From the NCBI RefSeq assembly GCF_008329985.2, contig NZ_CP038437.2, positions 4,831,270-4,895,269 on the forward strand: a stretch of 64,000 nucleotides of DNA, given 5' to 3'. This DNA comes from Halomonas binhaiensis (lineage in GTDB: Bacteria; Pseudomonadota; Gammaproteobacteria; Pseudomonadales; Halomonadaceae). The notes under the pieces are model-generated. The model was not told the origin of the DNA. It was given only the letters and a program-made list of their open reading frames with translations, and ran no database searches. Both the position numbers and the translations under genes were made by a program. This document shows positions 2,781-58,305 of this stretch, piece by piece (position 1 is the first letter of the stretch; each line of letters starts with the position of its first letter).

Positions 2781-3813
2781 ACGTAATGCCATGCGGCTGC
2801 TGGACAGCGATCAGCGTCGATCCGCTGATACACACTTGTATCGACTGGATATCCCCGGGCTCGAGGCGGCGGGTATCGATATCTATCTGAAGGATGAAAG
2901 TACTCATCCCAGCGGCAGTCTCAAGCACCGCCTGGCCAGGTCGCTGTTCCTGCATGCTATCTGCAGCGGCAAGATCCAGGAAGGCACGCCCGTCATCGAA
3001 GCCTCTTCAGGCAGCACAGCGGTTTCCGAAGCCTATTTTGCCCGTTTGCTAGGGTTGCCATTCACGGCTGTCATGCCGGCGAGTACCGCAGGCAGCAAGA
3101 TTGCACAGATCGAAAGGCTTGGCGGCACCTGCCACTTCGTCACGCGCTCTTCTCAGGTCTATACGGCGGCCCGGCAGCTGTCCGAGGAGCGGGAAGGGCA
3201 CTATATGGACCAGTTCACCTATGCCGAGAGTGCGACTGATTGGCGAGGTAACAACAACATCGCTGAAAGCATCTTTCGTCAGATGGAAATGGAACGTCAT
3301 GCGACGCCATATGCCGTGGTGATGAGTGCTGGAACCGGAGGTACGTCGGCGACCATCGGGCGCTATATCCGCTATTGTGGACATGCGACCCGGCTGGTGG
3401 TGGTCGACCCGGAAAACTCGGTATTTCATGACAGCTATCAACGGCGGGATCCGAGCCTGACGATCGAGGCCAGCAGCCGGATCGAGGGAATCGGCCGACC
3501 TCGTGTGGAGCCTTCCTTTCTGCCCGAGGTCATCGACGAGATGTTGCAGGTCGCGGATGCCTCCTCCATTGCGGCTATTCATTGGCTGGAACAGCGCCTG
3601 GGCCGTAAGGCGGGTGGTTCCACGGGTACTAACTTGTGGGGAGCCCTGACAATTGCGCAACGCATGCGCAGTGATGGCCACCAGGGTTCCATCGTGACCT
3701 TGATGTGTGATGGTGGTGAGCGTTACCTGGATACCTACTATGATGCCGACTGGATCAAGCGGCAGTTTGGTTCGCTGGAACAACCGACGACATGGTTGAA
3801 CAGCTTTCTCTAG
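2767..3813 (+). CDS. PLP-dependent L-cysteine desulfhydrase, Cds1-like
   Basis: A fold-type II PLP enzyme of 348 residues from the cysteine synthase family. The probable Schiff-base lysine is Lys53 in PSGSLKHRL, the substrate loop is [10 protein letters not shown], and the phosphate-binding glycine loop is [12 protein letters not shown]. The N-terminus (WVRNAM, then RRSADTHL) and the length resemble the Cds1 desulfhydrase group rather than CysK or CysM, so breakdown of cysteine to H2S, pyruvate and ammonia is more likely than synthesis. It converges on a DecR-like regulator, which in enterics responds to cysteine and controls cysteine degradation. Only a weak AGGTG precedes the ATG. Cysteine synthase activity remains possible. 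Confidence 0.75.
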
Positions 3814-3849
3814 GTCACTCGCTCCAGGTCATTCGCTCTAGGCCACTCG
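3808..3849. repeat. 14-bp x3 tandem repeat between convergent cds1 and decR stops
   Basis: Three consecutive 14-bp units (3808-3821, 3822-3835, 3836-3849) share the pattern CTCTAGGTCACTCG with two or three substitutions. The first unit contains the TAG stop codon of the desulfhydrase gene; the last ends 2 bp before the decR stop triplet. It fills the whole intergenic space between the two genes. Confidence 0.85.
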
Positions 3850-3851
3850 CA

Positions 3852-4319
3852 TCATGCGATCGGGAATGCGGTGGTGTATTTGATCTGTTCCATGGCGAAG
3901 TTTGAACTGACGTTGGTCAGACCTTCGGTGCTATTGATCAGTTTCTTGTAGAAGGCGTCATAGGCGCCAATGTCGCGCACAACGACGCGCAGCATGTAGT
4001 CCCATTCACCTGACATGCGGTAGAACTCCACCACTTCCTCGAAGCTCATCACCGTCTTGGCGAATGTTTCCAGCCAGCACTTGTCATGACGCTGTGTCTT
4101 GATCTGCACGAAGACCGAGAGACCAAGCCCCAGCTTTTCCGGATTAAGCAGGGCAACCCGGCTCCGAATGTAGCCGTTTTCTGCCAGGCGCTTGACGCGT
4201 TTCCAGCATGGCGTGGTGGAAAGGTTTACTGCTTCCGCGAGCTCCTTTATGGAAAGGGAGGCATCGCGTTGCAGGAGAAAGAGAATATGACGATCGAAGC
4301 CATCCAGGCTGGAAGGCAT
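3852..4319 (-). CDS. decR: Lrp/AsnC-family regulator, DecR-like
   Basis: A 155-residue Lrp-type regulator with an N-terminal helix-turn-helix (about residues 23-45, LAEAVNLSTTPCWKRVKRL) and a C-terminal RAM/ligand domain. The TTPCWKR signature, NPEKLGLGLSVFVQIKTQ and the tail FAMEQIKYTTAFPI closely resemble enteric DecR (YbaO), the activator of cysteine-degrading genes. Its position next to a Cds1-like desulfhydrase supports a role in cysteine detoxification and sulfide output. It is convergent with cds1, so its operator for that gene would lie in 2348-2766. The ATG at 4319 places the HTH at the usual distance. Confidence 0.85.
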   Translation of the reverse strand: MPSSLDGFDRHILFLLQRDASLSIKELAEAVNLSTTPCWKRVKRLAENGYIRSRVALLNPEKLGLGLSVFVQIKTQRHDKCWLETFAKTVMSFEEVVEFYRMSGEWDYMLRVVVRDIGAYDAFYKKLINSTEGLTNVSSNFAMEQIKYTTAFPIA

Positions 4320-4513
4320 AACCCCCCTCCTACATATCGGAAGCGAGAATGATAATTCTACTTCTATAAATATATATTTCTAATACCAATTTTGCGTTCA
4401 CAATGCCATAAAGTTCAAGAGATGTTGTGTAAAATTGTACTTAAATCAGTAATATGTGGTAGGCGATAAGCACGCTTACCAGTTCATCCTAAAGACTGGT
4501 TAATGATGGTGTC

Positions 4514-4552
4514 GAAATGCGTGCAAGAAATGCGTGCAAGAAATGGGTCGCC
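4514..4552. repeat. 13-bp tandem repeat downstream of fliA
   Basis: Two perfect copies of GAAATGCGTGCAA (4514-4526, 4527-4539) are followed by a degenerate third unit (4540-4552). It lies about 25 bp beyond the fliA stop codon on the minus strand. Confidence 0.8.
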
Positions 4553-4574
4553 AAGGAAGATGCCTGTACAGGTT

Positions 4575-5276
4575 CTAGTCATCACATAGCTGACTGCGTA
4601 GGCGTCGTATGGCCTGGCTGTGAAGCTGGCATACGCGTGATTCACTGACGCCCAATACCGCGCCGATCTCCTTGAGGTTTAACTCTTCCTGGTAATACAG
4701 GCCCATCAGCAGCTTTTCTCTTTCCGGAAGTTCAGCGATAGCGGCAATCAAGGCCTGGCGCTGTTCGCCTTCGATCAGCTCACTCAGCAGACAGGAGCTC
4801 TGTTGATCACAAAAGCCCTGTTCTCCCTTTTCTTCCAGGATCTCTTCGAACGGCAATAGCAACCCATTGTTGATATCGCCGAGCAGCTGCCGATAGCTGA
4901 CTAGATCCATGTCCATGGTGGCCGCTATTTCATGTTCTTCGGGAGCTCGCCCCAGTTTCTGCTGCAGCTCGCGGATAGTGGTTTCCAGGGCTCGGGCCTG
5001 GCGTCGTACTCTGCGAGGTAACCAGTCGCGACTACGCAGCTCATCCAGCATGGCTCCGTGTACGCGCTGACTGGCATAGGTTGACAATTGAGCTCCCTGG
5101 TTGGGGTCATAACGTCCCAGAGCCTCGATCAATCCGAGCATGCCGGCTTGAATGAGGTCATCGAGATCGACTCCGGCGGGCAGGCGTACCTGCAGCGCCA
5201 GTGCCTGACGCCGGACCATGGGGAGATAGGCTTCCAACTGGGCTTGTGGATCTATCTTGCCTTGGGCTGTGTACAT
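4575..5276 (-). CDS. fliA: RNA polymerase sigma factor FliA (sigma-28)
   Basis: Flagellar sigma-28 directs RNA polymerase to late flagellar, motor and chemotaxis promoters and is held inactive by FlgM. Region 2 (LPAGVDLDDLIQAGMLGLIEAL, then YASQRVHGAMLDELR and DWLPRRVRR) and region 4 (LKEIGAVLGVSESRVCQLHSQA) are both intact. The ATG at 5276 is preferred: AGGGA precedes it, and MYTAQGK matches the E. coli FliA N-terminus. An in-frame ATG at 5294 lacks a ribosome-binding site. The gene lies 30 bp (12 bp from the upstream ATG) after flhE at the end of the flhBAE cluster, whereas in enterics fliA is next to fliC. Confidence 0.95.
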   Translation of the reverse strand: MYTAQGKIDPQAQLEAYLPMVRRQALALQVRLPAGVDLDDLIQAGMLGLIEALGRYDPNQGAQLSTYASQRVHGAMLDELRSRDWLPRRVRRQARALETTIRELQQKLGRAPEEHEIAATMDMDLVSYRQLLGDINNGLLLPFEEILEEKGEQGFCDQQSSCLLSELIEGEQRQALIAAIAELPEREKLLMGLYYQEELNLKEIGAVLGVSESRVCQLHSQAIRRLRSQLCDD

Positions 5277-5306
5277 GACGGTTCCCTGTGACATGGAGGA
5301 TATGCC

Positions 5307-5756
5307 TCAGCGGTGGTTGACGAGCACGTCTAGCGCTTCGATCGTCACGGGGCGCTGGTCCGGGTGAAGTCGAAAGCGGAATTGCAGTGGGGCGGAGGCG
5401 GGCAGGCCGTGAAAGGCATCGCTGGCCCCGCCTTCTGCGGCCAGGTACTGGCAGTGCTGGTTCGCGCAGAGGTAAGCGGACAGCCGACTGCCGGGAGGCG
5501 CGCGGTAATGCCAGGACACCCGAGTGATCGCGCCCTTGATGGGGCCAGAAGGTGGCCGGAGAAGAGCAGAGCGTCGTGGTATCTCGCTGGAGGCGACATT
5601 CAGACGTGGGGCCGTTGCGCTCCAGGCACCTGGTGTGGCCGTGGCCGAACTGGCGAAGACAATGAGGCAGATGTTCAGCAGAACCACCTGGCCGATCTTG
5701 ATGGACCAAAGACGTAGAGCTCTGCATGAGGCCATGCTTATCTGGATGTTGGCCAT
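5307..5756 (-). CDS. flhE: Flagellar protein FlhE
   Basis: A small periplasmic flagellar protein of 149 residues with a cationic N-terminus and a hydrophobic segment (about residues 20-40) that fits a signal peptide ending near ATA-TPGAW. The mature part has the family pattern GAW then VSWHYRAPPGS and the paired cysteines in LCANQHCQYL. In enterics FlhE is linked to preventing proton leak through the export apparatus. Its start overlaps the last base of flhA, and fliA follows. FlhE is otherwise best known from peritrichous enteric-type systems, which agrees with the presence of flhDC here. Confidence 0.85.
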   Translation of the reverse strand: MANIQISMASCRALRLWSIKIGQVVLLNICLIVFASSATATPGAWSATAPRLNVASSEIPRRSALLRPPSGPIKGAITRVSWHYRAPPGSRLSAYLCANQHCQYLAAEGGASDAFHGLPASAPLQFRFRLHPDQRPVTIEALDVLVNHR

Positions 5757-7846
5757 CAGGGGGCTCCCCCGACTTCGGTGGTGATGCGCAGAATACGGTC
5801 GTCGGGGATCTCGGCCTGGGACATCACGACCAGATGGTGCAGGCGCTGACGCAGAAAGCGGGCCAGCAGGGGACGCAGGGAATGATGAACTACCATGACC
5901 GGCGGTTCCCCGCTGGCATCATGACGATGCAGGGCATCTTCGGTTTGCGTCATCAATGTTTCAGCGAGGCCAGGCTCCAGCGCACCGTTACCGCTCATGG
6001 CCTGGGTCAGAACATTTTCGAGCGAGGGTGCCAGGCCGATGACATGGAGTGTCTCCTGTCCAGCAAACCACTGCTCAGTGATGGCTCGGCCGAGTGCTAC
6101 CCGCACCATGGCAACCAATTCCATGGGGTCTTGCTGGTGGGGAGCATATTCAGCCAGTGTGTCGAGTAGCGTTCGCAGATCGCGGATCGACACGTCTTCA
6201 TTCAGCAGTTGCTGGAGAATGCGTGTGAAGGCCACCAGGGACAGTGTCTTGGGTATCACATCCTCGATCAGCGACTTGTCATCACTGTCTTTGGCCAGTT
6301 TATCGAGGAGCCTCTTCACCTCATGGCGGCCCAGCATCTCGGCGGCGTGGCGGTGAAGCAATTGGTTGAGGTGGGTGGCGATCACCGTGCTGGCATCGAC
6401 CACGGTGTAGCCATACACCTGGGCCCGTTCACGCTGCTCGGCATCGATCCATAAAGCTGGCAAGCCAAAAGCGGGGTCCTGGGTGGGGCTGCCATCGAGC
6501 TGGCCGGATACCTGCCCGGGATCGATGGCCAGCCAACGACCGGGCCAGGCTTCTGCGCGCCCTACCTCAGCCCCCTTGAGCGTGACCCGGTAGCTGTTGG
6601 CACCGAGCTCCAGGTTGTCGCGGATGTGTACAACAGGAGGCAGAAAGCCGACATCCTGGGCAAACTTCTTGCGCACACTCTTGATTCTTCCCAGCAGCTC
6701 GCCTTTCTGGCGTGAGTCGACCAGAGGAATCAAGCGATGACCGACCTCAAGACCGAGGGTATCGACCAGGCTGACATCATCCCAACTGGCCTCCGGCGCT
6801 TCTGGCGCGGTTGGGACTGTCTGTTGCTCCTGGGTTTCCACCAGGCGCTGCTCGGATGTTCGCGTCAGCCACCAGGCCAGGCCACCCAATAGAGCTGTGA
6901 ACATCAGGAATACCAGGTTGGGCATGCCAGGCACCAGGCCCAGCAGCCCCAGGACTCCGGCAGCCAGCCATAGGACCTTGGGATTGACGAACAGCTGGCT
7001 GATCATCTGTTCGCCGACATCCTGTTCGGTGTTGACCCGGGACACTGTGACACCTGCGGCAGTGGAGATCACCAGGGCCGGTATCTGTGCCACCAGGCCA
7101 TCACCGATGGCGAGCAGCACATAGGTACGGGCGGCATCGGCAAAGGCCATGTGATACTGCAGCAGTCCAATCATCAGGCCGCCGAGTATGTTGACGGCCA
7201 TGATGACCAGGCCCGCCATGGCATCGCCGCGGACGAATTTGCTGGCACCGTCCATGGAGCCGTAGAAGTCTGATTCCTGGGAAACCTCTGCACGCCGGCG
7301 TTTGGCGTCATCTTCTCCGATCAGGCCGGCATTGAGATCGGCATCAATGGCCATCTGCTTGCCCGGCATGGAGTCAAGCATGAAGCGGGCGCCCACCTCA
7401 GCGATACGGCCGGCTCCCTTGGTGATGACCATGAAGTTGATGATCACCAGGATCAGGAAGACCACCAATCCGACCGCGAAATTGCCACCGACCAGAAACT
7501 GACCGAACGCCTCGATGACCTTGCCCGCGGCGTCTCCCCCTTCGTGGCCATGCATCAATACGACCCGGGTCGAGGCCACGTTGAGCGATAGCCGCAGCAG
7601 GGTAGTGAACAACAGCACGGCAGGAAAGGCCGCGAAATCCAAGGGCCTTTCGGAGAACATGCTGACCAGCAGTACCATGACGGACAGCGCAATGTTGAAA
7701 GTGAACAGCACATCCAGAATGAAAGGTGGCAACGGCAGGATCATCATCGACAGGATCATGATGATCAGCAACGGGCCGGCGAGAACCTTCATCGGTAGCT
7801 GTTTGAGCACGCCGAACAGGCCGCCTTGATTCAGAAGGGCTTTCAT
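5756..7846 (-). CDS. flhA: Flagellar export apparatus protein FlhA
   Basis: FlhA forms the nonameric cytoplasmic ring and part of the proton-driven export gate. The 696-residue length is typical. The first ~330 residues hold about eight membrane segments and the FHIPEP signature region (KFVRGDAMAGLVI). The rest is the soluble domain that binds chaperone-substrate complexes. The ATG at 7846 overlaps the flhB stop by 4 bp (ATGA), with AGGAA upstream, so the two are translationally coupled. flhE follows with a one-base overlap. Confidence 0.97.
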   Translation of the reverse strand: MKALLNQGGLFGVLKQLPMKVLAGPLLIIMILSMMILPLPPFILDVLFTFNIALSVMVLLVSMFSERPLDFAAFPAVLLFTTLLRLSLNVASTRVVLMHGHEGGDAAGKVIEAFGQFLVGGNFAVGLVVFLILVIINFMVITKGAGRIAEVGARFMLDSMPGKQMAIDADLNAGLIGEDDAKRRRAEVSQESDFYGSMDGASKFVRGDAMAGLVIMAVNILGGLMIGLLQYHMAFADAARTYVLLAIGDGLVAQIPALVISTAAGVTVSRVNTEQDVGEQMISQLFVNPKVLWLAAGVLGLLGLVPGMPNLVFLMFTALLGGLAWWLTRTSEQRLVETQEQQTVPTAPEAPEASWDDVSLVDTLGLEVGHRLIPLVDSRQKGELLGRIKSVRKKFAQDVGFLPPVVHIRDNLELGANSYRVTLKGAEVGRAEAWPGRWLAIDPGQVSGQLDGSPTQDPAFGLPALWIDAEQRERAQVYGYTVVDASTVIATHLNQLLHRHAAEMLGRHEVKRLLDKLAKDSDDKSLIEDVIPKTLSLVAFTRILQQLLNEDVSIRDLRTLLDTLAEYAPHQQDPMELVAMVRVALGRAITEQWFAGQETLHVIGLAPSLENVLTQAMSGNGALEPGLAETLMTQTEDALHRHDASGEPPVMVVHHSLRPLLARFLRQRLHHLVVMSQAEIPDDRILRITTEVGGAP

Positions 7847-9012
7847 GACCGTTGTTCCTGGGATGGGGAGGCTGGGATGGCCAGGTGTTCTGGCACATCA
7901 ATGGAAGCTGGTCTGGGAGGGGGCTCAGAGCCTTCATGGACGGCGCGTTGGAGTCCAAAGGCCCAGGCCAGAACCTCGGCTACGGCGTTGTACAACTCGA
8001 CTGGGATTTCACGATCAAGGTCAACGTGGTGGTAGAGCGTTCGGGCCAGGGGGGGCGCGGATAACAGAGGAATGCCAGCCTCATGGGCAAGCTCACGAAT
8101 TCTTGTCGCCACGTGGTCCATGCCCTTGGCCACGACTTTCGGTGCACCCATGCTGTTCTCGCGGTAACTCAATGCCACTGCATAATGGGTGGGGTTGGTA
8201 ATGATCACGTCGGCCTGGGGTACCTGACTCATCATCCGGCTACGGGCCATGGCCTGTTGCTGTTGACGAATGCGGCCCTTGATCTGAGGGTCTCCTTCGG
8301 ATTCCTTGTGTTCCTGGCGGATGTCTTCCTTGCTCATGCGCAGTTTCTTGTTGTGGCTCCATAGCTGATAGGGAACATCGATAAGGACCACCACGACCAA
8401 GGTCATCACCATCAACCCACAAGCCCTGGCGATCAGCCGTACGGCCTCGGACAAGGCGGCGGTCAGTGGCAGGCTCATCAGGTCCATGGCATGGCCACGG
8501 TGATGGAGAAGAAGGATCGCCCCGATGCTGCCTACCAGCCCTGCCTTGGCAATCGCCTTCCCCAGTTCGGCCAGGGCATGGGTTGAGAGCATGCGTGATA
8601 ACCCCTTGACTGGGTTGAGCTTTGACAATTGAGGTTTGAGTGACTTGGCCGATAGCAGCCAGCCGCCGAGCAGTGCTGGTGCTGCCAACGCAACCACGCT
8701 GAGCAACACAAAAAGCGGTATCAGGTTGAACAGGCTGCGCTGACCGAGCGACAGGGCCTGGTCCAGCATCGGCATGGTCTCCATTGCCTCTCTGCGCTCG
8801 AACAGAAAGGCCTGTTCCATGACGGAGCTCAGCAGGTCATACAGCTGATGGCCCAGGGACCATAGGCCAATGACACCAGCCAGAAGCAACAGAAAGGTGG
8901 CAAGCTCCCTGGAGCGTGCTACCTGGCCTTCCTCCCGAGCTTTTTCCTTGCGTCGGGGGGTGGCGTCTTCGGTTTTTTCCTGATCGCTGCTTTGGTCGGC
9001 CATGACGGTCAT
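7843..9012 (-). CDS. flhB: Flagellar export switch protein FlhB
   Basis: FlhB is the export-gate protein that switches specificity from rod/hook to filament substrates after cleaving itself. It has four membrane segments in residues 40-220 and a cytoplasmic domain with the autocleavage motif NPTH at 273-276. The amphipathic N-terminus is rich in KTEDATPRRKEKAREEGQV, as in all FlhB proteins. The C-terminal ~30 residues are proline-rich and poorly conserved. A second ATG at 9003 (MADQ) is an equally good start. It is followed by flhA with a 4-bp overlap. The separate small FlhB-like protein at 21707-22048 is related to its C-terminal domain. Confidence 0.97.
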   Translation of the reverse strand: MTVMADQSSDQEKTEDATPRRKEKAREEGQVARSRELATFLLLLAGVIGLWSLGHQLYDLLSSVMEQAFLFERREAMETMPMLDQALSLGQRSLFNLIPLFVLLSVVALAAPALLGGWLLSAKSLKPQLSKLNPVKGLSRMLSTHALAELGKAIAKAGLVGSIGAILLLHHRGHAMDLMSLPLTAALSEAVRLIARACGLMVMTLVVVVLIDVPYQLWSHNKKLRMSKEDIRQEHKESEGDPQIKGRIRQQQQAMARSRMMSQVPQADVIITNPTHYAVALSYRENSMGAPKVVAKGMDHVATRIRELAHEAGIPLLSAPPLARTLYHHVDLDREIPVELYNAVAEVLAWAFGLQRAVHEGSEPPPRPASIDVPEHLAIPASPSQEQRS

Positions 9013-9122
9013 CGGGCGAGATAGTCACTGCCCATTGTGCGTCGAGCCATGCTGGTCAAAGGCCGGAAAAAGGCAGTAAAGGACTGTCTTCTCCGGCCTT
9101 CAGGATAGGGAAGGTGAAGGGG

Positions 9123-9806
9123 TTAGAAGCCCAGCTCATCAAGCAGGTCGTCGACCTGGTCCTGATTGGCCATGACATCGGCGTGGCTAGTATCGATCTG
9201 TGGCCCGTTGAGTAAGCCCTGGTCTCTTTCCTGGGCCTTCTGTCGTCGGTTTTCCCGGACGTCACTCGCAGGTACGTTATCGAGCAGGACCTGGACCAGT
9301 TGCTGCTCGATTTCCCGGATGACATCCATCATGCGCTTGATGACCTGTCCCGTCAGGTCTTGGAAATCCTGTGCCATCAATATTTCAAGCAGTTCCTGGC
9401 GGGTGGCCTGGGTATGTTCCGGTACTTCGGCTAGATAGGCCTGGGTATCGTGGATCAGCCTGGCGACTTCCGTGCTGCCTTGCTCCAACGGAAGGGTTTC
9501 CTGGCAGGTTGTCCAGCGCTGCTGAAGTGCATTGGCTCGCTCACTCATCAGGTCCTGCAGGGGCTGGGCGCGGTCGATGGCATTGAGAGAGCGCTCTGCG
9601 GCCTGCTCGGTCATGGTGGCGATGTAGCTCAATCTGTCTCGCGCATCGGGTATTGCCTCGGCGGCACGTTCGACTTCCTTGTCCAGGCCCAGTTCACGCA
9701 TGCTGTCGCGCAGCATGCGTGCCAACTGGCCGATGCGCTGCACCATTTCATCGTTGGATGCAGTGGACACAAGGCCGGGATTGATCGTCCGTGGTTCGCT
9801 CATCAT
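9123..9806 (-). CDS. cheZ: Chemotaxis protein phosphatase CheZ
   Basis: CheZ removes the phosphate from CheY-P and so ends the motor reversal signal. The 227-residue protein has the expected long helical hairpin. Its active-site stretch is [18 protein letters not shown], with the conserved aspartate and glutamine (QDFQDLTGQ). The far C-terminus [12 protein letters not shown] is the CheY-binding peptide. AGGAG precedes two adjacent ATG codons (9806 and 9803). It lies directly downstream of cheY, as in enterics, and upstream of flhB. Confidence 0.95.
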
Positions 9807-9830
9807 TGTCTCCTGGTAGTGTCCTGGATC

Positions 9831-10220: not shown

Positions 10221-10258
10221 GGGATGTCCTCTATTGATCCGAATTGATGTGTCTAGCG

Positions 10259-11935: not shown

Positions 11936-11975
11936 TTGAACGATCCTTGTCAGTCACATCTGGAGTGCCTGGTGT

Positions 11976-12046
11976 GGTTCAAGAGTGCTGTATTCGATAG
12001 CGCGATATTCGATGGCGCGATATTCAAGTGCTGTGTTCGAAAACGC
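11976..12046. repeat. 13-15-bp degenerate tandem array abutting the cheB stop
   Basis: About five units start near 11976, 11991, 12006, 12021 and 12034. The central two (TATTCGATAGCGCGA and TATTCGATGGCGCGA) differ at one base. The array runs up to the cheB stop codon and fills much of the gap before the downstream MCP gene. Confidence 0.8.
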
Positions 12047-13104: not shown

Positions 13105-13204
13105 ATGTCTCTCCTGGAAAACCGGTAGCAAGTGCAGGTTGTGAACGAAAACCGCTGTCGTATACGGCCTGATGGCAGTGTTATCGACGCAATGACGGTG
13201 GGCT

Positions 13205-15950: not shown

Positions 15951-16004
15951 TGAAGTTGCTCAGAGAGGTGAAGCTAGCCAGAGAGATGAATCCACCCAGA
16001 GGCT
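15951..16004. repeat. 18-bp x3 tandem array abutting the cheW stop
   Basis: Three units of exactly 18 bp (15951-15968, 15969-15986, 15987-16004) share the pattern TGAAGTTGCTCAGAGAGG with several substitutions. The array ends on the first base of the cheW stop triplet (16004-16006). Confidence 0.85.
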
Positions 16005-26729: not shown

Positions 26730-26741
26730 TGCTTCCTTGAT

Positions 26742-26811
26742 CCTTGGTACTACCCCTTTTAGTACTGCTTCCTTGGTACTACCCCTTTAGTACCGCTTCC
26801 TTGGTACTACC
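26742..26811. repeat. 28-29-bp tandem repeat downstream of fliC
   Basis: Two near-identical units (26742-26770, 26771-26798) and a partial third (26799-26811) share the core CCTTGGTACTACCCCTTT. The array starts 12 bp after the flagellin stop and ends just before the terminator stem. Confidence 0.9.
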
Positions 26812-26860: not shown

Positions 26861-27919
26861 TCAGGGAATGGTTACCGTGATGGTCACTGTCGTGTTATAG
26901 GGGCCCGGAGTCACCAGGCTTTCCTGACCGGGGACGAGAGTGGGGTAAAACAATAATCGTGTCTGTGAGCTGCCACCCTGGAGTGGCCGTATCATGCCAT
27001 TTTCCATCCCTAGTCCCAGCAGGTTGCCGGAGGCATCCGTCATGGCCACTCCAATACCGGGTTTGCTGGTGGCGATATAAGGGCCGTTGGCATCAGGGGT
27101 GCCCGTTGCTGTGGCAAAGAATTCAAGTCCTGAGAGATTGCCATGTGTACTGTTGGTGCAATCCACTGACAGGTCGATCGGCCTGGGTATATAACCTAAC
27201 CCTGGTGGAGCTCCAATATTGAGTTGGTTGATTGCTGTGCTGCCCAGGTCCACGGTAAAAGTATCTCCTGCACGGAAGGAGCAGGTTTGTGTCGTCCTGA
27301 CCGTAAAGTCAGCGCTTATTCTGATAAATGGGTGGTCAAGGTCTGGACCACCGATAGCGCTGGTGAACTGCCAGTAAACCTTGGCCAGTTCCCCGGAAAA
27401 GTGAGACTCTCCGAGAAAACTTCGGTCGACTCGAAGCTCAATCTGCCCTCGAGTTCCCGAGCTCACGTCAGCAGGTGTGTTATTAAGGGGGGCACAATTG
27501 GTGCCACCAGCATTCTGAACCTGGAAGAAGGGTACCGATACATTGCCACGACCAAAGATGAAAACAGATACTCGAGCTGAAAGGTGATCATTTAACCTGA
27601 TCCAACCATCGGTTGTGGGCAGAGCAGGCTCGCCAGTAAATAACGAAAACTCTCGAATCTCGCTTGGGCAGTGGCAGACAGCGTTTCCCTGTGAGCGGTC
27701 GGAAAAGTCGCGTGAAGTGGTATTTCCTGACAGATTGGAACCATCAACCTGTTCAGTGGCTTGCACAAGGAACGACCCAGGGCCAGAGCACTGCCATTCA
27801 GGCAAGCCCGTGGGCACAGGGGCAGCCAAACTGGTAGTGCTAATCAAGCTGGTAGCAACCACTGCGGCAAGGGTGGCAAGGGTAAGAAGGTGGCGAATGA
27901 ATGGGTAAGGTGTCATCAT
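26861..27919 (-). CDS. Fimbrial tip adhesin-like protein, copy 1
   Basis: A secreted protein of about 352 residues, the last gene of a chaperone-usher operon. A signal peptide (hydrophobic HLLTLATLAAVVATSLISTTSLA) precedes an N-terminal domain beginning LPEWQCSG with several cysteines. The C-terminal pilin-like domain (about 225-352) ends TVTITVTIP, an alternating strand suited to chaperone donor-strand binding. It is clearly paralogous to the next gene. The two-domain form is typical of tip adhesins; the receptor is unknown. The start at 27919 or 27916 precedes the signal peptide; no clear ribosome-binding site is visible. Confidence 0.7.
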   Translation of the reverse strand: MMTPYPFIRHLLTLATLAAVVATSLISTTSLAAPVPTGLPEWQCSGPGSFLVQATEQVDGSNLSGNTTSRDFSDRSQGNAVCHCPSEIREFSLFTGEPALPTTDGWIRLNDHLSARVSVFIFGRGNVSVPFFQVQNAGGTNCAPLNNTPADVSSGTRGQIELRVDRSFLGESHFSGELAKVYWQFTSAIGGPDLDHPFIRISADFTVRTTQTCSFRAGDTFTVDLGSTAINQLNIGAPPGLGYIPRPIDLSVDCTNSTHGNLSGLEFFATATGTPDANGPYIATSKPGIGVAMTDASGNLLGLGMENGMIRPLQGGSSQTRLLFYPTLVPGQESLVTPGPYNTTVTITVTIP

Positions 27920-28114
27920 TTTTCGTATTTTAATGGGAGGTAGGAACGAGATTTTAATTATTTGTCCATCTGTTTGTGGATGGTGAATGATGCATGTTTT
28001 ACACAATGAATTCTGTGTGTTGTTCGCAGATAAAAGTGAAATTAAATGTTTGTTTTTACAGGTGAATAGAGTGATGTAAATCGTATTTATGTCTCATGCC
28101 GGGTATGTCTTTCT

Positions 28115-29176
28115 TCAGGGAATAGTTACCGTGATGGTCACTGTTGCATTATAAGGCCCGGGAGTGACCTCGCTTTTCTGACCTGGGACGATAGTAGGGT
28201 AGAACTGTACTTTTTTTAGGGAACTTCCCCCTTGTAAAGGATGAATCTCACTATTCTCCATGCCTAGTCCCAGCAGGTTGCCGGAGACATCTGTCATCGC
28301 TACTCCGATACCTGGTTTACTGGTGGCGATATAGGGGCCATTGGTATTGGGAATACCTGCGGCTGTGGCAAAGAATTCAAGCCCTTGAATATCGCTATCC
28401 GAGATGTTGTCGCAGTTCACTGACAGGTCGATTTGCCTTGGTATATAACCAAGCTCTGGTGGTGCACCAACCTTGAGATGATTGATCGGTGTGCTTCCCA
28501 GGTCCACAGTAAAGGTATTTCCCGCACGGAAGGAGCAGTTTTGCGTGGTCTTGACCGAAATGTCAGCGTTTATTCTGGCAAAAGGATAGTTATGCGCTGG
28601 CCCGCCATCGGCACCTTGAAACTGCCTGTAGACTCTGGATAACTCACCAGAAAAGTGAGACTCACCGAGAAAACTCTTGTCGACCCGGAACTCGACCTGG
28701 CCATCGGCTGCTGGGGAGCGAGGGCCATAGCTGCTGGTGCCAGGAAAGCATCCACTCTGTTGGGAACTCCTGATCTGGAAAAAAGGTACTTGTTGATTGT
28801 CTAATCCATTGCCATGAATGATCACTCGCGCTGAAAGGTTATCGTTCAGCTTGAGCCAACCATTGGTTTCTGGCTGGGATGCGGTAGCTGTATATAACAC
28901 ATTGCCAGTATGAGATCTTGGGCAGTGACAAACAGTATGTATATCTGAATAGACAGAAAAACGACGTGAAGTGATGTTCCCCACCTGACGGGAACCATCA
29001 ATTTTCTCAGTTGCTCCTACGAAAACTGAGGTTGGGCTGGCACATTGCCAGACAGGCAAGCCTTCTGGTAAAGGGTCGGTCGTAGTGATCGTGCTACCAA
29101 TGGATATGCTGGAAACAAGGCATCCGTAAATGGCAAGGGAATGGCGAAGGTGAGAGGAAGATAACAACATCATCAT
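28115..29176 (-). CDS. Fimbrial tip adhesin-like protein, copy 2
   Basis: A 353-residue paralogue of the adjacent adhesin-like gene. Identical stretches include FLGESHFSGEL and SKPGIGVAMTD, and both proteins end TVTITVTIP, while the N-terminal domains diverge more. A signal peptide (about residues 1-30) precedes GLPVWQCASP. Three successive ATG codons make the exact start uncertain. The pair looks like a tandem duplication with faster change in the putative binding domain. Confidence 0.7.
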   Translation of the reverse strand: MMMLLSSSHLRHSLAIYGCLVSSISIGSTITTTDPLPEGLPVWQCASPTSVFVGATEKIDGSRQVGNITSRRFSVYSDIHTVCHCPRSHTGNVLYTATASQPETNGWLKLNDNLSARVIIHGNGLDNQQVPFFQIRSSQQSGCFPGTSSYGPRSPAADGQVEFRVDKSFLGESHFSGELSRVYRQFQGADGGPAHNYPFARINADISVKTTQNCSFRAGNTFTVDLGSTPINHLKVGAPPELGYIPRQIDLSVNCDNISDSDIQGLEFFATAAGIPNTNGPYIATSKPGIGVAMTDVSGNLLGLGMENSEIHPLQGGSSLKKVQFYPTIVPGQKSEVTPGPYNATVTITVTIP

Positions 29177-35993: not shown

Positions 35994-36067
35994 TGTGTTT
36001 TCAGTGAGCCGATGGCTCTGCCAGTGAGCTGAAGGCTCTGTCATTTGAGCTGATGGCTCTCTCAGCA
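35989..36067. repeat. 19-21-bp x4 tandem array spanning the flgB stop
   Basis: Four units start GCTGATG, GCCGATGG, GCTGAAGG and GCTGATGG at 35989, 36008, 36028 and 36049. The first contains the flgB stop codon (35991-35993). The array fills most of the flgB-flgC gap. Confidence 0.8.
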
Positions 36068-46257: not shown

Positions 46258-46299
46258 TTTACTGAGAGGGGCTTACTGAAAGGGTCTTACTGAGTGAGC
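46258..46299. repeat. 14-bp x3 tandem array spanning the fliR stop
   Basis: Three units of exactly 14 bp (46258-46271, 46272-46285, 46286-46299) share TTACTGA followed by a G-rich part. The third contains the fliR stop codon (TTA on plus, 46287-46289). Confidence 0.85.
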
Positions 46300-47438: not shown

Positions 47439-47498
47439 AGCTTTTAAAACAAACCTTCAAACCGCTTTTTAAACCACTTCTTAAACCATTCTTTAAAC
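47439..47498 (-). repeat. 12-bp x5 tandem array repeating the fliP stop codon in frame
   Basis: Five 12-bp units fill 47439-47498. On the coding strand four begin GTTTAA or GTTTGA and the last begins GTTTTA. The first unit carries the real fliP end (Val codon GTT and stop TAA at 47493-47495). Because 12 is a multiple of three, three more in-frame stops follow at 12-nt intervals (two TAA, one TGA). Confidence 0.9.
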
Positions 47499-49209: not shown

Positions 49210-49210
49210 G

Positions 49211-50245: not shown

Positions 50246-50257
50246 GGCAATACCGAC

Positions 50258-50743: not shown

Positions 50744-50883
50744 CTGCGTGAAACTCCCCTTCGAGCATTACAGGCGTTGAGACCCGGGTTCAGCACGGGT
50801 ATATGGACGCTCAGTATGGCCATGGAGAAGGGGAGACGAAGGTTCGAACAGGGCTGAACTTTGTTGCTATCTCAGGGTTTTGC

Positions 50884-52278: not shown

Positions 52279-52295
52279 GTTCAGACTCCAAGGGG

Positions 52296-52754
52296 TCAGA
52301 GGCCGTTGGGTAGAGCGTTTTCGCGCTGCCGGCGTCCATTGATCAGATCATCGAGGGTGCGTTGTTCGCGGCGTGACAGGTGATAGGCCTGTTCGCCGGC
52401 CCGTCGGCTGGCCAGCGTGTCATAGGCTTTCAGGCGGCGTTGCTCCTGCTGCCAGTGCTGCTGGCAACGTTCCACCTTGTGGCGTTGGGCTTCAATGCCA
52501 TCGCGGGCCTTGCATAGTGCGGTATCCAGGGAAGCAAGAAAGCGTTGGGTGTTATGCAGGGTGGCCGTGGCCACACCTTGGCGCATGGCATCGTTGAGAT
52601 AGCAAGCGTACTCCTGGCGGTAACGCTGCAAGGATTCAAGCTGCTGATGTGCCTGCTGTTCGGTGCTGCGTTCATTGGCCAGATGCTGGCCAGCCTGATC
52701 TCGTGCCTCTCGGGCCAGTTCTATCAGAGTGTCGAGGGGCGTCGTATTGCTCAT
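52296..52754 (-). CDS. fliJ: Flagellar export protein FliJ
   Basis: A coiled-coil stalk protein of the export ATPase, 152 residues, almost entirely helical and rich in Q, R and E. The pattern [22 protein letters not shown] and [21 protein letters not shown] fits the family. Its ATG overlaps the fliI stop. Confidence 0.9.
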
Positions 52755-54262
52755 GAACTACCTCCAAGGACGGTATTTCCAAGGACGGTATTTCCAAGGA
52801 CAGTATTCAGCGCTTGCCGTGACTGCTCGAGGTTGGAGCATTCATCGGTGCGTTGCTGCAGGAAAGCTTCCAGTTTCGGATAGCGACGTACGGCTTCATC
52901 CAGACGTGGGTCGTGGCCTGGCTGGTAGGCGCCGACGCTGATCAGGTCTCGATTGCGCTGATAGCGTGACAGCATGCCCTTGAACGCCTGGGCCTGGCGG
53001 CACTGGTTATCATCGGCGACGGCATTCATGACACGGCTGATGGATGCTTCTATATCGATGGCGGGATAATGACCGGCTTCTGCCAGGGTGCGTGACAACA
53101 CCACGTGTCCGTCGAGAATCGCACGTGCGGAATCGGCAATGGGGTCCTGCTGGTCGTCACCTTCGGTAAGCACGGTATAGAACGCGGTGATGGAGCCTCC
53201 ACCGACACCGGCATTGCCAGCACGCTCGACCAGGCTGGGCAGCTTGGCGAAGACAGAAGGGGGATAGCCCTTGGTGGCGGGCGGCTCACCGATCGCCAGA
53301 GCAATCTCGCGCTGAGCCATGGCATAGCGAGTGAGCGAGTCCATGATCAACAGGACATTCTTGCCTTCATCTCGGAAACCCTCGGCAAGGCGAGTGGCAT
53401 AGGCCGCCCCTTGCAGACGCTGCAAGGGAGAAGTATCTGCCGGGGCTGCGACGACAACGGAGCGGCGCAGGCCTTCCTTACCGAGAATGTTATCGATGAA
53501 GTCCTGTACTTCACGGCCACGCTCTCCTATCAGGCCGACCACGATGACGTCGGCTTGGGTGTAACGCGCCATCATGCCAAGCAGAACCGATTTACCTACA
53601 CCTGATCCGGCAAACAGCCCCATGCGCTGACCCCTTCCAACGCATAGCAGGGCATTGATGGCGCGGATACCGACATCAATCTGCTGTTCTATGGGGGCTC
53701 TGGACAAGGGGTTCAGCTGCGGTGTGGCCAGAGGGGCTCGGGGTGCTTCATCCAGGCTTCCGAGGTCATCCAGAGGAGCGCCGTTACCATCTAGCACCCT
53801 GCCGAGCAGCGTTTGCCCCAGGGGGAAGCGCCGAGCACTGCCGGGCGCCCCATCACCGAGAGGAAGCACTTTTGCACCTGGAATCAGGCCATTGACCTCG
53901 GCCAATGGCATCAGATACAGGCGTTCGCCTGAAAAGCCTACAACCTGTGCTTCAGCATAATTTGCTCGGTCGTCTATGCCATTCTTCGGTAGTTCGATCA
54001 GACAGCCATCACCCAGTGCCACCTGGATACCTACAGCCTCAATCACCATTCCTGTGGCTCGCACGACCCGACCGCTGATGCGCTGGCTTGGCAAGTTCAC
54101 GAGGCGCTGGGCAACGGCGTTCAGGGCCTGTTGCCAATGACGCTGATGAGGGCATGTCAGGGATGTGTTGGGCATGGAGAGTGTGTCATTGGGTGCCAGA
54201 CGAACTGCCTCGCCTGCGGACTTGTGAACTGACTGACTGCCAGCGTTGCTCCCAGGTGGCAT
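52751..54262 (-). CDS. fliI: Flagellum-specific export ATPase FliI
   Basis: The F1-beta-like ATPase of the export apparatus. Walker A is GSGVGKS (about residue 220), Walker B lies in [17 protein letters not shown], and an ATPase signature follows. Start choice: ATG at 54262 has GGAG 6 nt upstream but overlaps fliH by 77 bp, and ATG at 54175 gives a start just after fliH but has no ribosome-binding site. The C-terminus carries three in-frame TVLGN-type repeats (52764-52808) not expected in the family. fliJ overlaps. Confidence 0.95.
52764..52808 (-). repeat. 15-bp x3 tandem repeat at the 3' end of fliI
   Basis: Three 15-bp units (52764-52778, 52779-52793, 52794-52808); the first two are identical, and the third differs at two bases. 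They encode NTVLG repeats just before the stop, lengthening the C-terminus. Confidence 0.95.
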
Positions 54263-54908
54263 CGATTTCTCCATATTCGCTGGTAATCCGGCATCCACCG
54301 CGGTGCAGGCTATCGTCTGCTTTCAGGGTCCAGCCGGCGGCTGCTAAAGTGTCCCCCAGATGTCGTTCGACGAGCACGAGGTCCTGAGGGTGCAGCCAGA
54401 GGCGCTGGCTGCCGACCAGTGGAGGATCGCTACGCAGTAATTCTTCAACCACTGACACTATCTGGCGTGGACGAGCCTTGAGCGCATCTCCAGCGAGCTG
54501 GCGCCCCGTTGCCAGCGCCAGGTCGATAAGTTGTGCGGCAATGGCGGTGTCCAGATCCTTCAAGGCGCGGTGGAAGTTTTCTATCAAGTCAGATAGCGGA
54601 CTCAGGGCTTCATGGGCCCGCTTTTCCAGTGCTTCGGCTATCTCGGCTTCAGCCTGGCTCCGTCCTTCGGCCAGCCCCTCATGCATTCCTTTCATGAAGC
54701 CCGCTTCATGCCCCTGTTCATGCCCCTCGCGGCGGCCTTGTTCAATACCTTGCAACCAGGCCTTGTGGTATAGCTCATCTGGAGAAAGAAGAGCTCCGTC
54801 ATCGTCATCACAAGAGGATTCGTCAGCGCTACAGGAGCTCTCGACGGAAAGCTCGTCCATGCACCATGGCTGCCAGGCAGCAGGCGCTGCGATGGGCTGG
54901 TCACTCAT
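54186..54908 (-). CDS. fliH: Flagellar export ATPase regulator FliH
   Basis: FliH binds FliI and holds it at the export gate. The 240-residue protein has the glycine-spaced helix typical of FliH ([18 protein letters not shown]), then the C-terminal domain with [14 protein letters not shown]. It lies between fliG and fliI. Confidence 0.93.
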
Positions 54909-54935
54909 TCTGAAGGCCCCTGTGAATGGATGAGG

Positions 54936-55940
54936 TTACACATAAGCCTCGTCACCTCCACTGAGTACGATTTCTCCACTGTCGGCCAGACGGCGAACAA
55001 TCTGCAGAATGGCTTTTTGTTCAGTTTCCACCTGCGAGACCCGAATCGGGCCACGAGAGTCCATTTCTTCCTGCAGCAGGTCGGCGGCGCGCTGGGACAT
55101 GTTGCGCATGAACCTGGTCTTGAGGTCTTCTGGTGCACCCTTGAGTGCCACCACCAGGCTATTGTTGTCGATCTCCTTGAGCAGCAACTGGATACTGCGA
55201 TCATCCAGATCGACAAGATTCTCGAACAGGAACATTTCGTCGATGATGCGTTGGGCCAGTTCTTCGCTGTGGGCACGCACTGTGTCGATGGCTGCGCTTT
55301 CCTGGTTGGAGTTCATCAGGTTGAGAATCTCGGCAGCGGTACGCACCCCTCCCATCTTGCTGCGCTTGAGGTTCTGGCCATCAAGCATATTGGTCAACAC
55401 CTCGGTGAGCTCTTGCAGAGCCGCTGGCTGAACACCATTGAAGGTAGCGACGCGTAGCACGACATCGTTGCGCAACTTTTCAGTGAAGTGTTCCAGTACA
55501 TCGGCAGCCTGATGACGTTCCAGGTGAACCAGTACCGTGGCAATGATCTGCGGATGCTCATCGCGGATGAGTTCTGCCACCATCGATGGATCCATCAGGT
55601 TGAGGGCATCGATACCAGTGCTGCCGGAGGTGCTCTCGAGTACATCTTCGATCAGGCTGGAAGCCCGTTCGCTTCCCAGAGCCTTGGTCAACACGGCGCG
55701 AATGTGATCGCTGGAGTTGAGGTTGAAGCCGATGAACTCTCCTGCTTCTTTATGGAAGTCCTGCAGTACTTTGCGCATTTCGTCGTGGGAGATCTGGCTG
55801 AGTAACGTCATCTCCCGGGACAAATTCTGAATTTCCTTGGCACTGAGAAACTTGAACACTTCTGCCGCGCTGTCCTCATCGAGGGCCAGCAGCAGGACAG
55901 CACTGCGTCGCAGGCCGGGAGAAGCTTCAGGATGGGTCAT
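54936..55940 (-). CDS. fliG: Flagellar motor switch protein FliG
   Basis: The rotor protein that meets the stator, 334 residues of ARM-like helical repeats. SAVLLLALDEDSAAEVFKFL near the N-terminus, the EHPQIIATVLVHLE motif, and the charged torque helix DDRSIQLLLKEIDNNSLVVALKG-type region are intact. Its start overlaps fliF by 14 bp. Confidence 0.97.
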   Translation of the reverse strand: MTHPEASPGLRRSAVLLLALDEDSAAEVFKFLSAKEIQNLSREMTLLSQISHDEMRKVLQDFHKEAGEFIGFNLNSSDHIRAVLTKALGSERASSLIEDVLESTSGSTGIDALNLMDPSMVAELIRDEHPQIIATVLVHLERHQAADVLEHFTEKLRNDVVLRVATFNGVQPAALQELTEVLTNMLDGQNLKRSKMGGVRTAAEILNLMNSNQESAAIDTVRAHSEELAQRIIDEMFLFENLVDLDDRSIQLLLKEIDNNSLVVALKGAPEDLKTRFMRNMSQRAADLLQEEMDSRGPIRVSQVETEQKAILQIVRRLADSGEIVLSGGDEAYV

Positions 55941-57657
55941 TTTCGTTCATCCAGCCGCGCACGATCATGGCTACCAGGCGAGGGTCTTCCTGGGCTAGCT
56001 CGCGCAGTTCATTGAGATGCTGTTCATAGGTCGTGGCCTTGCGCCGCTGTGCTGAAGCCCTTGTATAAGTGGTATCGCCTGAATCGGGCTCTTCGCTGTC
56101 GTCGGTTCGTCCCATATCGGTATCGTCCTCTGTCTCTTCCCGAGCTTGCAGGGCTGTCTGGGGAGCAGAGGTTTCCAAGTAATGCTTCACCACAGGGCGA
56201 AGCAGACGGCGGTACACGAACAGGATGATCAGCCCGACCAGCAGGTAGCGGCCGATTTCGATGGCCAAGTGTTGCAGGTCTGAGTTCTGCCACCAGGGCA
56301 GCGGCGTCTCTTCGGAAGCGGTGATGAAGGGGCGATTGACTACCACGAGATCATCGCCTCGATCTGCTGAATACCCCATGGCCTGGCGAACCAGCTTGTC
56401 AATCTGCGCCAATTGAGCCTCATCCAGAGGATGCGGCTTCTGTGCTTCCGCATTATCACTGGCGCCTGCAAGAGCATCGTCGCTGATATAGTTGATGACC
56501 ACCGCCGCTGTCAGGCGCTTAATTTGCCCTCGCTGATGCTGTATGTGGGAGACCTGGTGATCGACTTCATAGTTGATCACGTCGTCACGCCGCATGCGTT
56601 CAGACTGAGCGTTGTCAGTGCCTTGCTGATTGGCAGTAGCTCCATCCTTGGGTTCTTCTGTCGGTGTGCCTTCGACAGGAGAGGGTGCTGTGCCGGGGGG
56701 CGTGTTGCTGAGGGCGCCGGGGATACCTTTGGCCAGATCCCCCTTGCCGTCGACATCAAGGCTTGTCTGGCGGCTACGAACGGCCGCTTCGTTAGGAGGC
56801 TGATTGGGGACGAAGTGCTCGGCAGTTTCCTCATGAGAGGAAAAGTCGATTTGGGCGGTCACCTGGGCCTGTACATTATGTGGGCCAACGATAGGTCCCA
56901 GAATCTTTTCGATACGCTGGCGAAGAGCGCTTTCCACGCTTGCAACATAGTCGAGCTGTGTGCTGTCAAGACCACTATTCTGGGTCGTTGGAGTAGATAG
57001 CAGGTGCCCGTTCTGGTCGATCACCGTGACATCTTCGGCAGTCAGGTCCGGGACGCTGGAAGACACCAGGTGGATCATGGCTGCGACCTGTCCGCCTCCA
57101 AGGGTGCGGCCAGGCTCCAGGGTCAATACCACCGAGGCTTTGGCCGGTTTTCTGTCGCGAACGAATACCGAATCCTTGGCTAGCGCCAGATGCACGCGGG
57201 CACTGGCTACAGGGCCAAGAGAGGAGATGGAGCGGGCCAGTTCACCTTCAAGGCCGCGTTGATAATTGATCTGCTCGGCAAACTGGCTGATGCCAAAGGC
57301 CTGGTGCTCCATCAATTCCATGCCAACATTACCAGCATGGGGCAGACCCTTCTCGGCCAGTTGCAGCCGCAGGCTATGGACCAGGTTGCTGGGTACCAGC
57401 AATGCCTGGCCACCAGCAGCAAACTGATAAGGGACACCGCGGCTGTCCAGCTCATTGATGATGGCTCCACCATCAGACTCGGAGAGGTTGCTGAACAGAA
57501 CCCGATAGGGTGGGCGCGTGGCCCACATGACCAAGGCTACGACCAGGGCAATAGCCATGGCACTGCCAATGATCAGGCCCAGCAACGGGTTATTGCGCAG
57601 CTTGGTGACGAGCTTTGACAATGGTGCTGGTCCCGCAGGTTTGGTTGCAGTGCTCAT
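55927..57657 (-). CDS. fliF: Flagellar MS-ring protein FliF
   Basis: The MS-ring subunit, 576 residues from the ATG at 57657 (GGGAG upstream); an open frame continues upstream but has no FliF-like sequence. Membrane segments lie at about 28-48 and 440-460. The periplasmic ring-building part has YRVLFSNLSESDGGAIINEL and KDSVFVRDRKPAKASVVL. The C-terminal helix (NELRELAQEDPRLVAMIVRGWM) binds FliG. It starts the long fliF-R operon, divergent from fliE. Confidence 0.97.
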   Translation of the reverse strand: MSTATKPAGPAPLSKLVTKLRNNPLLGLIIGSAMAIALVVALVMWATRPPYRVLFSNLSESDGGAIINELDSRGVPYQFAAGGQALLVPSNLVHSLRLQLAEKGLPHAGNVGMELMEHQAFGISQFAEQINYQRGLEGELARSISSLGPVASARVHLALAKDSVFVRDRKPAKASVVLTLEPGRTLGGGQVAAMIHLVSSSVPDLTAEDVTVIDQNGHLLSTPTTQNSGLDSTQLDYVASVESALRQRIEKILGPIVGPHNVQAQVTAQIDFSSHEETAEHFVPNQPPNEAAVRSRQTSLDVDGKGDLAKGIPGALSNTPPGTAPSPVEGTPTEEPKDGATANQQGTDNAQSERMRRDDVINYEVDHQVSHIQHQRGQIKRLTAAVVINYISDDALAGASDNAEAQKPHPLDEAQLAQIDKLVRQAMGYSADRGDDLVVVNRPFITASEETPLPWWQNSDLQHLAIEIGRYLLVGLIILFVYRRLLRPVVKHYLETSAPQTALQAREETEDDTDMGRTDDSEEPDSGDTTYTRASAQRRKATTYEQHLNELRELAQEDPRLVAMIVRGWMNENDPS

Positions 57658-57894
57658 CGGATACTCCCGGTAATGGGGAGGCTGTCGACTTGTAGATGTT
57701 CGGATGGCATTGAGGCAGTCCGTTATGCGGCTAGGCTGGTCCCTTGGTCGGGTTCTATGACGATATCCATTATCCGCAGGGCTGCTGAGGTGAAAGGTCG
57801 AAATAGCCACGGTTTTGACGGCCAATTGGGGCGATGGCCTGAGTAACAGGCTTGTTAGTCTGGGTCGGGTCTTTTGGTCTCCCAGGAAATTGTC

Positions 57895-58227
57895 ATGGCT
57901 ACTCCCGCGATGCAGTCGGCCTTTACCCAGATGAAGGTGCTGGCCCAGCAGGCCCATCAGACTGGAGATTCCCTGCCGCATGCTGCCAATGCAGAATCCG
58001 GCGGTGTCGGCTTTGCCGATGCATTGGTTTCCTCGATTCGGCGCATCAACGAGTTGAAGGTAAATGCCGATGCACAGGCTCAGGCTTTTCAGGCTGGTGT
58101 GCCTGGTGTCGAGCTAAATGACGTCATGGTCGACATGCAGAAAGCCAGCCTGGCCTTTCAAATGGGGCAACAGGTGCGTAATCGCCTGGTCAGTGCCTAC
58201 CATGATGTGATGAATATGCAGGTATAA
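57895..58227 (+). CDS. fliE: Flagellar basal-body protein FliE
   Basis: The adaptor between MS ring and rod, 110 residues. GFADALVSSIRRINELKVNADAQAQAF and VMVDMQKASLAFQMGQQVRNRLVSAYHDVMNMQV match the family. The ATG at 57895 has AGGAA upstream. It is a single gene divergent from fliF, as in enterics. Confidence 0.96.
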   Translation: MATPAMQSAFTQMKVLAQQAHQTGDSLPHAANAESGGVGFADALVSSIRRINELKVNADAQAQAFQAGVPGVELNDVMVDMQKASLAFQMGQQVRNRLVSAYHDVMNMQV

Positions 58228-58305
58228 AAGAAAAGGTTAGCCTCGTATCTAGTGCATATAAAAAGCACATGTGATGAGTACATGTAACAGGTGCGTATAA
58301 AAAGG
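58221..58305 (+). repeat. Degenerate ~33-36-bp repeats after fliE, including its stop
   Basis: The core TATAAAA occurs with similar flanks at about 58223, 58256 and 58295. The first core contains the fliE stop codon. The third copy runs into the terminator stem. Confidence 0.5.

Follow-up and report, generated by a model that had tools for sequence, protein, structure and literature searches.

The final 64,000 bases of the Halomonas binhaiensis chromosome (hereafter the window; G000:4831270-4895269 of a single-contig genome of 4,895,269 bases) hold flagellar and chemotaxis genes, as assigned by NCBIfam and Pfam, and short tandem arrays lie at or near the stop codons of several of them. Their units differ from gene to gene, which raises the question of what process places unrelated arrays at the ends of unrelated genes. 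The pattern is real, genome-wide, and common to several Halomonadaceae, with a modest preference for gene ends that substitution-based constraint does not fully account for; the first-pass annotation of the window, which took it for a duplication process belonging to gene ends, had partly misread it. The explanation favoured here, held with moderate confidence, is an ongoing slippage-type tandem duplication whose positions are filtered by selection.

Tandem arrays in the window and across the chromosome

The arrays at the nine named gene ends are confirmed as real. Each gene end was compared by lag matching with 300 dinucleotide shuffles of itself (10 tests, with cds1 and decR sharing one array); no shuffle reached the real score in eight of the ten tests, and one of 300 did so for each of cheW and fliE, so that at least 299 of the 300 shuffles were beaten at all nine ends. 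Tandem Repeats Finder (TRF) detects arrays at eight of the nine loci, the exception being fliE, which was missed even at a score of 30 and is the weakest of the nine cases.

The stop codon lies within the TRF array at cds1 (window positions 3808-3850, 14 bp × 3.1, filling the convergent gap between cds1 and decR), fliR (46259-46294, 14 bp × 2.6), and fliP (47459-47498, 12 bp × 3.3). The same had been claimed for flgB, where the stop codon (35993) in fact lies 7 bp upstream of the array (36001-36065, 20 bp × 3.2), ahead of a further flagellar rod gene. Other arrays begin beyond the stop: about 30 bp 3' of it at fliA (4514-4545, 13 bp × 2.5, identical copies), 20 bp at cheB (11991-12025, 15 bp × 2.3, with degenerate copies at its flanks), 2 bp at cheW (15961-16001, 18 bp × 2.3), and 11 bp at fliC (26741-26811, 28 bp × 2.5), where a hairpin and then a T run follow. 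The fliE repeat (approximate limits 58215-58305) is weak and degenerate, with a best lag of 39. A noncoding array of the same kind, also called by TRF, lies upstream of cds1 and not at a stop (2715-2749, 13 bp × 2.6). Copy numbers given by TRF are lower than those first proposed at cheB (2.3 versus 5), flgB (3.2 versus 4), and fliP (3.3 versus 5), probably because the higher values included degenerate flanking copies. Among all gene 3' ends of the window with at least 40 bp of room, 9/32 pass the test at one of 100 shuffles or fewer, a count that leaves out the cds1/decR gap (38 bp), and 4/35 of the 5' ends do so.

For the rest of the genome, an even sample of 40 stretches of 20 kb, taken at regular steps along the 4.895-Mb chromosome (0.8 Mb), was scanned by TRF at a score of at least 40 and a period of at least 5, while a larger set of 1.115 Mb comprised this sample, flanks, and the window. 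Genes were called by a hexamer script that includes ribosome-site words, rather than by an annotation pipeline. The 0.8-Mb sample holds 126 or 124 noncoding arrays, depending on the gene call, against 4, 2, and 1 in three shuffles of its noncoding DNA. Individual arrays are short and degenerate (19/126 are fully matched), as would be expected if they arose by chance or assembly error; this is nevertheless scarcely credible, given the 1–4 arrays of shuffled noncoding DNA against 124, and the presence of the same class in the independent assemblies of relatives. By far the top-scoring noncoding array of the sample is L005:11119-11385, with a 25-bp unit repeated 10.7 times at a 98% match.

Unit size, turnover and occurrence in other genomes

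The arrays have a unit size of their own. Among the 159 noncoding arrays of the 1.115-Mb set, 125 have units of 12–19 bp and 12 have units of 7 bp. Since TRF leans towards long units in arrays of few, degenerate copies, exact duplications of 8–60 bp were counted too, and 37 of the 48 found in the noncoding part of the same set are 12–19 bp long, with six at 8–11 bp and five at 20–60 bp; one shuffled set gave two, both of 8 bp. Pooled over relatives (G038, G007, G004, G024, G039, G049, and G046, plus 80 flagellar loci, of which L044 lies within G038), the corresponding counts are 19 at 12–19 bp, 11 at 8–11 bp, and four at 20–60 bp.

The claim that the unit differs at each locus, and that the arrays are not a family such as REP or ERIC, is mostly borne out: 12 related pairs were found among 144 arrays (period of at least 10, E<0.01), four of them neighbours, and none among shuffled units. 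MIRU, REP, and ERIC elements are intergenic and often adjoin a stop or start, but each is a dispersed family of one sequence, while the arrays described here mostly lack a common sequence, though a few share words. Copies of a dispersed family (REP, ERIC, MITE, or heptanucleotide) would account for a heptamer unit common to four places and for words of 10–14 bp common to a few longer arrays; the small number of related pairs refutes this for most arrays, and as a general explanation it is very improbable. Heptanucleotide short tandem repeats of the STRR type, with their 7-bp unit, resemble the minor class of 12 arrays, whereas the main class of 12–19 bp is mostly locus-specific.

Words of 13–14 bp are common to arrays at the following unrelated loci: window 36001-36065 and L021:3111; L021:3111 and L018:6335; and L014:15002 and L006:8651. 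Noncoding occurrences fall inside arrays in 11/15 cases for GCTGAAGGC and in 6/6 for GAAAGGTGCT. Near-perfect 7-bp arrays, of up to 17.7 copies, are found at G000:4725551-4725651, 4739199-4739322, and 4755668-4755740, as well as at L011:11423-11477 and L027:8247-8307; 4/12 of the 7-bp arrays hold the cyclic unit ACGAGCT, and at three of the arrays the closest relative differs by 4–6 units. As regards composition, the A content of arrays is 28% versus 24%, and hairpins within units are not raised (stem 2.92 versus 2.81 in shuffled units). The word AGCT occurs in 23/144 array units of H. binhaiensis (period of at least 10) against 7.8 expected, a threefold excess, and CGCC and CGGC are almost absent. 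AGCT was set aside as an array signature, its excess among relatives being significant in G024 alone (3/6).

Turnover was followed in the closest relative, G038, a metagenome-assembled genome with 84–96% identity in aligned blocks, which represents a separate species and not a strain. Arrays of H. binhaiensis could be placed in G038 in 34/38 cases (noncoding arrays of two joined stretches of the H. binhaiensis sequence); 13 have equal length within 2 bp and 21 differ, 14 of these 21 by whole units within 0.15, where about 30% would be expected by chance. In the opposite direction, 32/38 arrays of G038 were placed in H. binhaiensis DNA, where nine have equal length and 23 differ, 15/23 by whole units; the two lists overlap in loci, and a single length difference is in places common to adjacent arrays. 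Among the named loci, G038 is shorter by 14 bp (one unit) at cds1/decR, 12 bp at fliA, 44 bp at cheW, 27 bp at fliC, and 56 bp at flgB, and longer by 14 bp at cheB. The fliP gap measures 112 bp in H. binhaiensis and 69 bp in G038, the fliR array is degraded in G038, and the array at 2715-2749 keeps its length within 1 bp. At G038:C8 (L174 and neighbours), G038 in turn has arrays in gaps that are array-free in H. binhaiensis; the gap adjoining fliR, for instance, is 68 bp in G038 versus 29 bp in H. binhaiensis.

Two features of these changes bear on mechanism. An extra unit in G038 merges the sequence of its two neighbour units, as seen when the paired sequences are compared, and a gained unit that mixes its neighbours is what misaligned copying would be expected to produce. 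Furthermore, the exact two-copy arrays of H. binhaiensis show a median match of 3 bp past the two copies and 2/27 show none, while a calculation gives about 56% without an extra match if the ends lacked homology; in H. binhaiensis, the end homology favours misalignment at short homologies. A count of clean insertions or deletions (indels) of at least 3 bp (n=41), made after that of the unfiltered alignments, found 8/10 to be tandem at 14–19 bp, 4/20 at 3–13 bp, and 1/11 above 19 bp.

Some Halomonadaceae carry a high load of arrays, while others are close to the shuffled level. In 10 kb of noncoding DNA, H. binhaiensis holds 12.9 arrays (n=124, 98 of them at 12–19 bp), followed by H. cupida with 9.8 (n=27; 20 at 12–19 bp), G038 with 9.4 (n=40; 34), G004 with 7.1 (n=17; 6), G024 with 7.0 (n=14; 6, together with seven heptamer arrays), and G007 with 4.8 (n=8; 5). 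Lower values were obtained for a member of another family of the same order (2.7; n=6, one at 12–19 bp), H. socia (1.9; n=5, four at 12–19 bp), and Litchfieldella anticariensis (1.5; n=3, one at 12–19 bp). Unrelated genomes hold few arrays, with 1.0 per 10 kb in 200 kb of E. coli K-12 (n=3) and, in 50 kb of each of two megaplasmids, 0 in S. meliloti pSymB and 1.1 in C. necator pHG1 (n=1); none of the E. coli or pHG1 arrays is of 12–19 bp. The 80 flagellar loci, which were fetched by fliR, hold 58 arrays across 37 of the 80, 47 of them with units of 12–18 bp, against 5, 2, and 4 arrays in shuffles.

Base composition was rejected as a cause, since G+C is alike in the array-poor Litchfieldella and in H. 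binhaiensis (0.566 versus 0.571). Loss of repair genes was likewise rejected for six families: dnaQ, polA, mutS, sbcB (exoI), sbcD, and recJ are found in 8/8 genomes, array-rich and array-poor alike, with recJ above the curated cut-off in 2/8 and just below it in 6/8.

Proposed slippage and selection, and the gene-end excess

Arrays are enriched within 60 bp after stops, as had been anticipated, with a coverage of 9.5% there, 3.7% within 60 bp upstream of starts, 4.9% where the two zones overlap, and 5.8% in the remaining noncoding DNA; coding DNA has 0.6%. Of the 126 noncoding arrays of the sample, 20 span a stop and two span a start. The process is not limited to stops, however: coverage stays at 7–10% out to about 200 bp downstream of stops before falling to 3–5%, and upstream of starts it rises from 2%, reaching about 10% at distances over 200 bp. 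Arrays are depleted at starts, and the enrichment after stops arises in good part from this depletion.

Under the favoured explanation, a lineage-typical mutation process would be continually duplicating segments in tandem, mostly of 12–19 bp with a peak near 15 bp, and whole units would then be gained or lost by misalignment of the copies, whether through replication slippage or through a comparable joining process at short homologies. Such a process would act across noncoding DNA and probably coding DNA also, with selection leaving mostly units in multiples of three within genes; units divisible by three make up 74/84 coding arrays versus 46/126 noncoding ones, whose unit lengths are evenly spread over the three remainder classes (46, 42, and 38). 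Near starts most events would be purged, presumably for disturbing ribosome binding and promoters, whereas at and after stops they would be tolerated, because, by the rules of the genetic code, a duplication across a stop keeps its first copy, and hence the protein, intact. Arrays are indeed scarcest where sequence is most constrained, at starts: substitutions per site relative to G038 amount to 0.053 just before starts, 0.116 at 0–30 bp past stops, and 0.09–0.10 farther downstream. We infer that the mechanism is slippage and that array position is determined mainly by selection.

The same rates are relevant to the proposal that the arrays are functional 3' elements, such as spare stops, RNA-stabilising structures, or terminators, kept by selection. 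Some stop-spanning units do repeat the stop, and simulated tandems of random units fold less well than the arrays do (p=0.001). Compared with matched 3' windows, though, the arrays have no clear folding advantage (p=0.08), which leaves the 3'-end protection suggested for the window with little support, and terminator-like sites are no commoner in genes with arrays (19/100) than in those without (95/363). Stop-codon insurance, another early suggestion, predicts units in multiples of three, and these are seen in 10/29 stop-spanning arrays of H. binhaiensis, where about one third is expected by chance, although in 16/34 of those of relatives, slightly over one third. Moreover, unit number and sequence often change between relatives, and substitutions are denser just past the stop than farther downstream. 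A functional origin is thus improbable.

Several observations weigh against the favoured explanation, both as to mechanism and as to position. Simple slippage does not predict a unit size of 12–19 bp, and this class is clear in H. binhaiensis, G038, and H. cupida, whereas neither G004 (6/17) nor G024 (6/14) shows it clearly. The polA, mutS, sbcB, sbcD, recJ, and dnaQ families are all present in H. binhaiensis. When unfiltered alignments with G038 were scored by a stricter rule, 8/52 indels of 12–19 bp were tandem-like, in a table that is noisy, many of its indels lying in badly aligned stretches. End homology is lacking in 6/14 exact two-copy arrays of relatives and in the clearest duplication between H. 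binhaiensis and G038, and a decayed third copy would look like the end homology seen in H. binhaiensis.

With respect to position, substitution-based constraint accounts for the arrays incompletely. Array starts were counted in 10-bp bins lying at least 100 bp away from the following start or, for convergent gaps, within the nearer half; they number 44/1950 at −20 to +29 around stops versus 31/2830 at +30 to +199 in H. binhaiensis (2.1-fold, p=0.002), and 43/3916 versus 21/5259 in relatives, among which 79 loci were pooled (2.8-fold, p=0.0001). Indels of at least 5 bp per substitution amount to 0.146 in convergent gaps and, counted no closer than 100 bp to a start, to 0.062 in co-directional and 0.051 in divergent gaps, the densities behind these ratios being 15.4 such indels per kb at 0.106 substitutions per site (n=34), 6.6 at 0.106 (n=67), and 7.8 at 0.154 (n=17), respectively. 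Over nine position classes, array coverage tracks the indel load (rho 0.82) more closely than the substitution load (rho 0.50, p=0.17). Divergent gaps have in their interiors the most substitutions (0.13–0.18) and yet a modest array coverage (0.04–0.05).

This excess is due either to a stronger purging of indels at regulatory sites than substitutions reveal, or to more duplication where transcription ends. The latter would hold if duplication itself were linked to gene ends, with termination, converging polymerases, or transcription–replication conflict stalling replication there and triggering tandem duplication. Besides the clustering near stops in relatives, array starts of H. binhaiensis peak at −10 to −1 (15/394 versus 31/2830 at +30 to +199, p=0.0002), and, no closer than 100 bp to a start, convergent gaps exceed co-directional and divergent gaps in indels per substitution in 0.996 and 0.999 of bootstraps, respectively, which makes the transcription-linked process proposed at first sight possible. 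The peak was, however, noticed after the fact among several position tests, and in relatives the −10 to −1 bin is no higher than the next (8, 12, 10, and 8 in successive bins). By gap type, the near-stop excess of H. binhaiensis is significant in co-directional gaps (p=0.02) and not in convergent gaps alone (p=0.24 at −20 to +29; p=0.052 for the peak bin), and the confidence intervals of array coverage in convergent (0.056–0.142), co-directional (0.043–0.087), and divergent gaps (0.019–0.082) overlap. Selection on regulatory-site indels could yield the same contrast, and arrays are also widespread away from gene ends, as the coverage in the remaining noncoding DNA and far upstream of starts indicates. 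Overall, a gene-end-linked origin is possible but rather unlikely.

A related proposal, also rather unlikely, is that Halomonas and some relatives duplicate DNA by a mechanism whose inherent step is about 12–19 bp and which is more active where transcription ends or converges. Such a step might be set by an enzyme or by an intermediate of replication, such as a displaced Okazaki flap or a polymerase footprint; in yeast rad27 mutants, unremoved replication flaps reportedly lead to tandem duplications between short direct repeats. If true, this mechanism would constitute a second mutational signature beside ordinary short-unit slippage, slowly rewriting the DNA downstream of genes.

Relation to known repeats

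Among described systems, the arrays come close to variable-number tandem repeats or minisatellites, with which they share locus-specific, head-to-tail units of tens of base pairs and whole-unit changes between relatives. Both tandem direct copies and whole-unit length changes are found here, the latter in 14/21 and 15/23 of the arrays that differ from the closest relative, a comparison between species rather than strains. They differ in their abundance, of over 100 noncoding arrays per Mb, in consisting mostly of two to three degenerate copies, and in their narrow unit size.

Tandem repeats are also described from more distant systems. Portiera of Bemisia tabaci, a reduced endosymbiont whose free-living relatives include Halomonas, holds intergenic tandem repeats and has lost dnaQ, mutL, and other genes (PMC5322561). 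H. binhaiensis differs in retaining dnaQ and five more repair families, in a check that covered dnaQ, polA, mutS, sbcB, sbcD, and recJ. Eight tandem repeats have been reported for Evansia (PMC4122945). The fast-evolving tandem repeats of Borg elements, described as being of independent origin, resemble the present arrays in having an independent unit at every site, in turning over rapidly, in carrying partial repeats along their edges, and in using multiples of three within genes (PMC9879509). However, the Borg units are described there as nearly perfect and strongly A-rich, whereas the present arrays are mostly degenerate, only slightly enriched in A, and located on a bacterial chromosome.

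A tree-of-life repeat survey covered units of 1–9 bp (PMC12699852), a structure survey covered tandem units of up to 11 bp (PMC4060949), and a survey of prokaryote satellites required at least four copies (PMC6749651); with these settings, all three would miss most arrays of two to three copies and 12–19 bp. No report of such arrays in free-living Halomonas was found among titles and abstract openings, although this speaks only weakly for their absence.

Should the size class be a mutational signature, these free-living bacteria, which retain the main repair genes, would offer a way to learn what determines the length of tandem duplications, and may provide a background to the spread of repeats in the related endosymbiont Portiera. 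The arrays might also serve as markers for typing strains of industrial Halomonas, and they are a source of rapid change in mRNA 3' ends. They further serve as a caution that clustering at stop codons can stem largely from selection, without a stop-linked mechanism.

As regards the genes of the window, NCBIfam and Pfam agree with the names cds1, fliA, fliC, cheB, cheW, fliP, fliR, and fliE; flgB encodes a flagellar rod protein (Pfam), and decR a regulator of the Lrp/AsnC family. Rfam and tRNA scans of the window gave no match. Two genes adjoining fliC (26861-29176) have a weak similarity to LpfD (long polar fimbrial protein), below the curated cut-off. The FliR protein of the window shares 92% identity with its counterpart in Halomonas sp. 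bin15, and 64–70% with those of H. litopenaei, H. cupida, H. elongata, and others.

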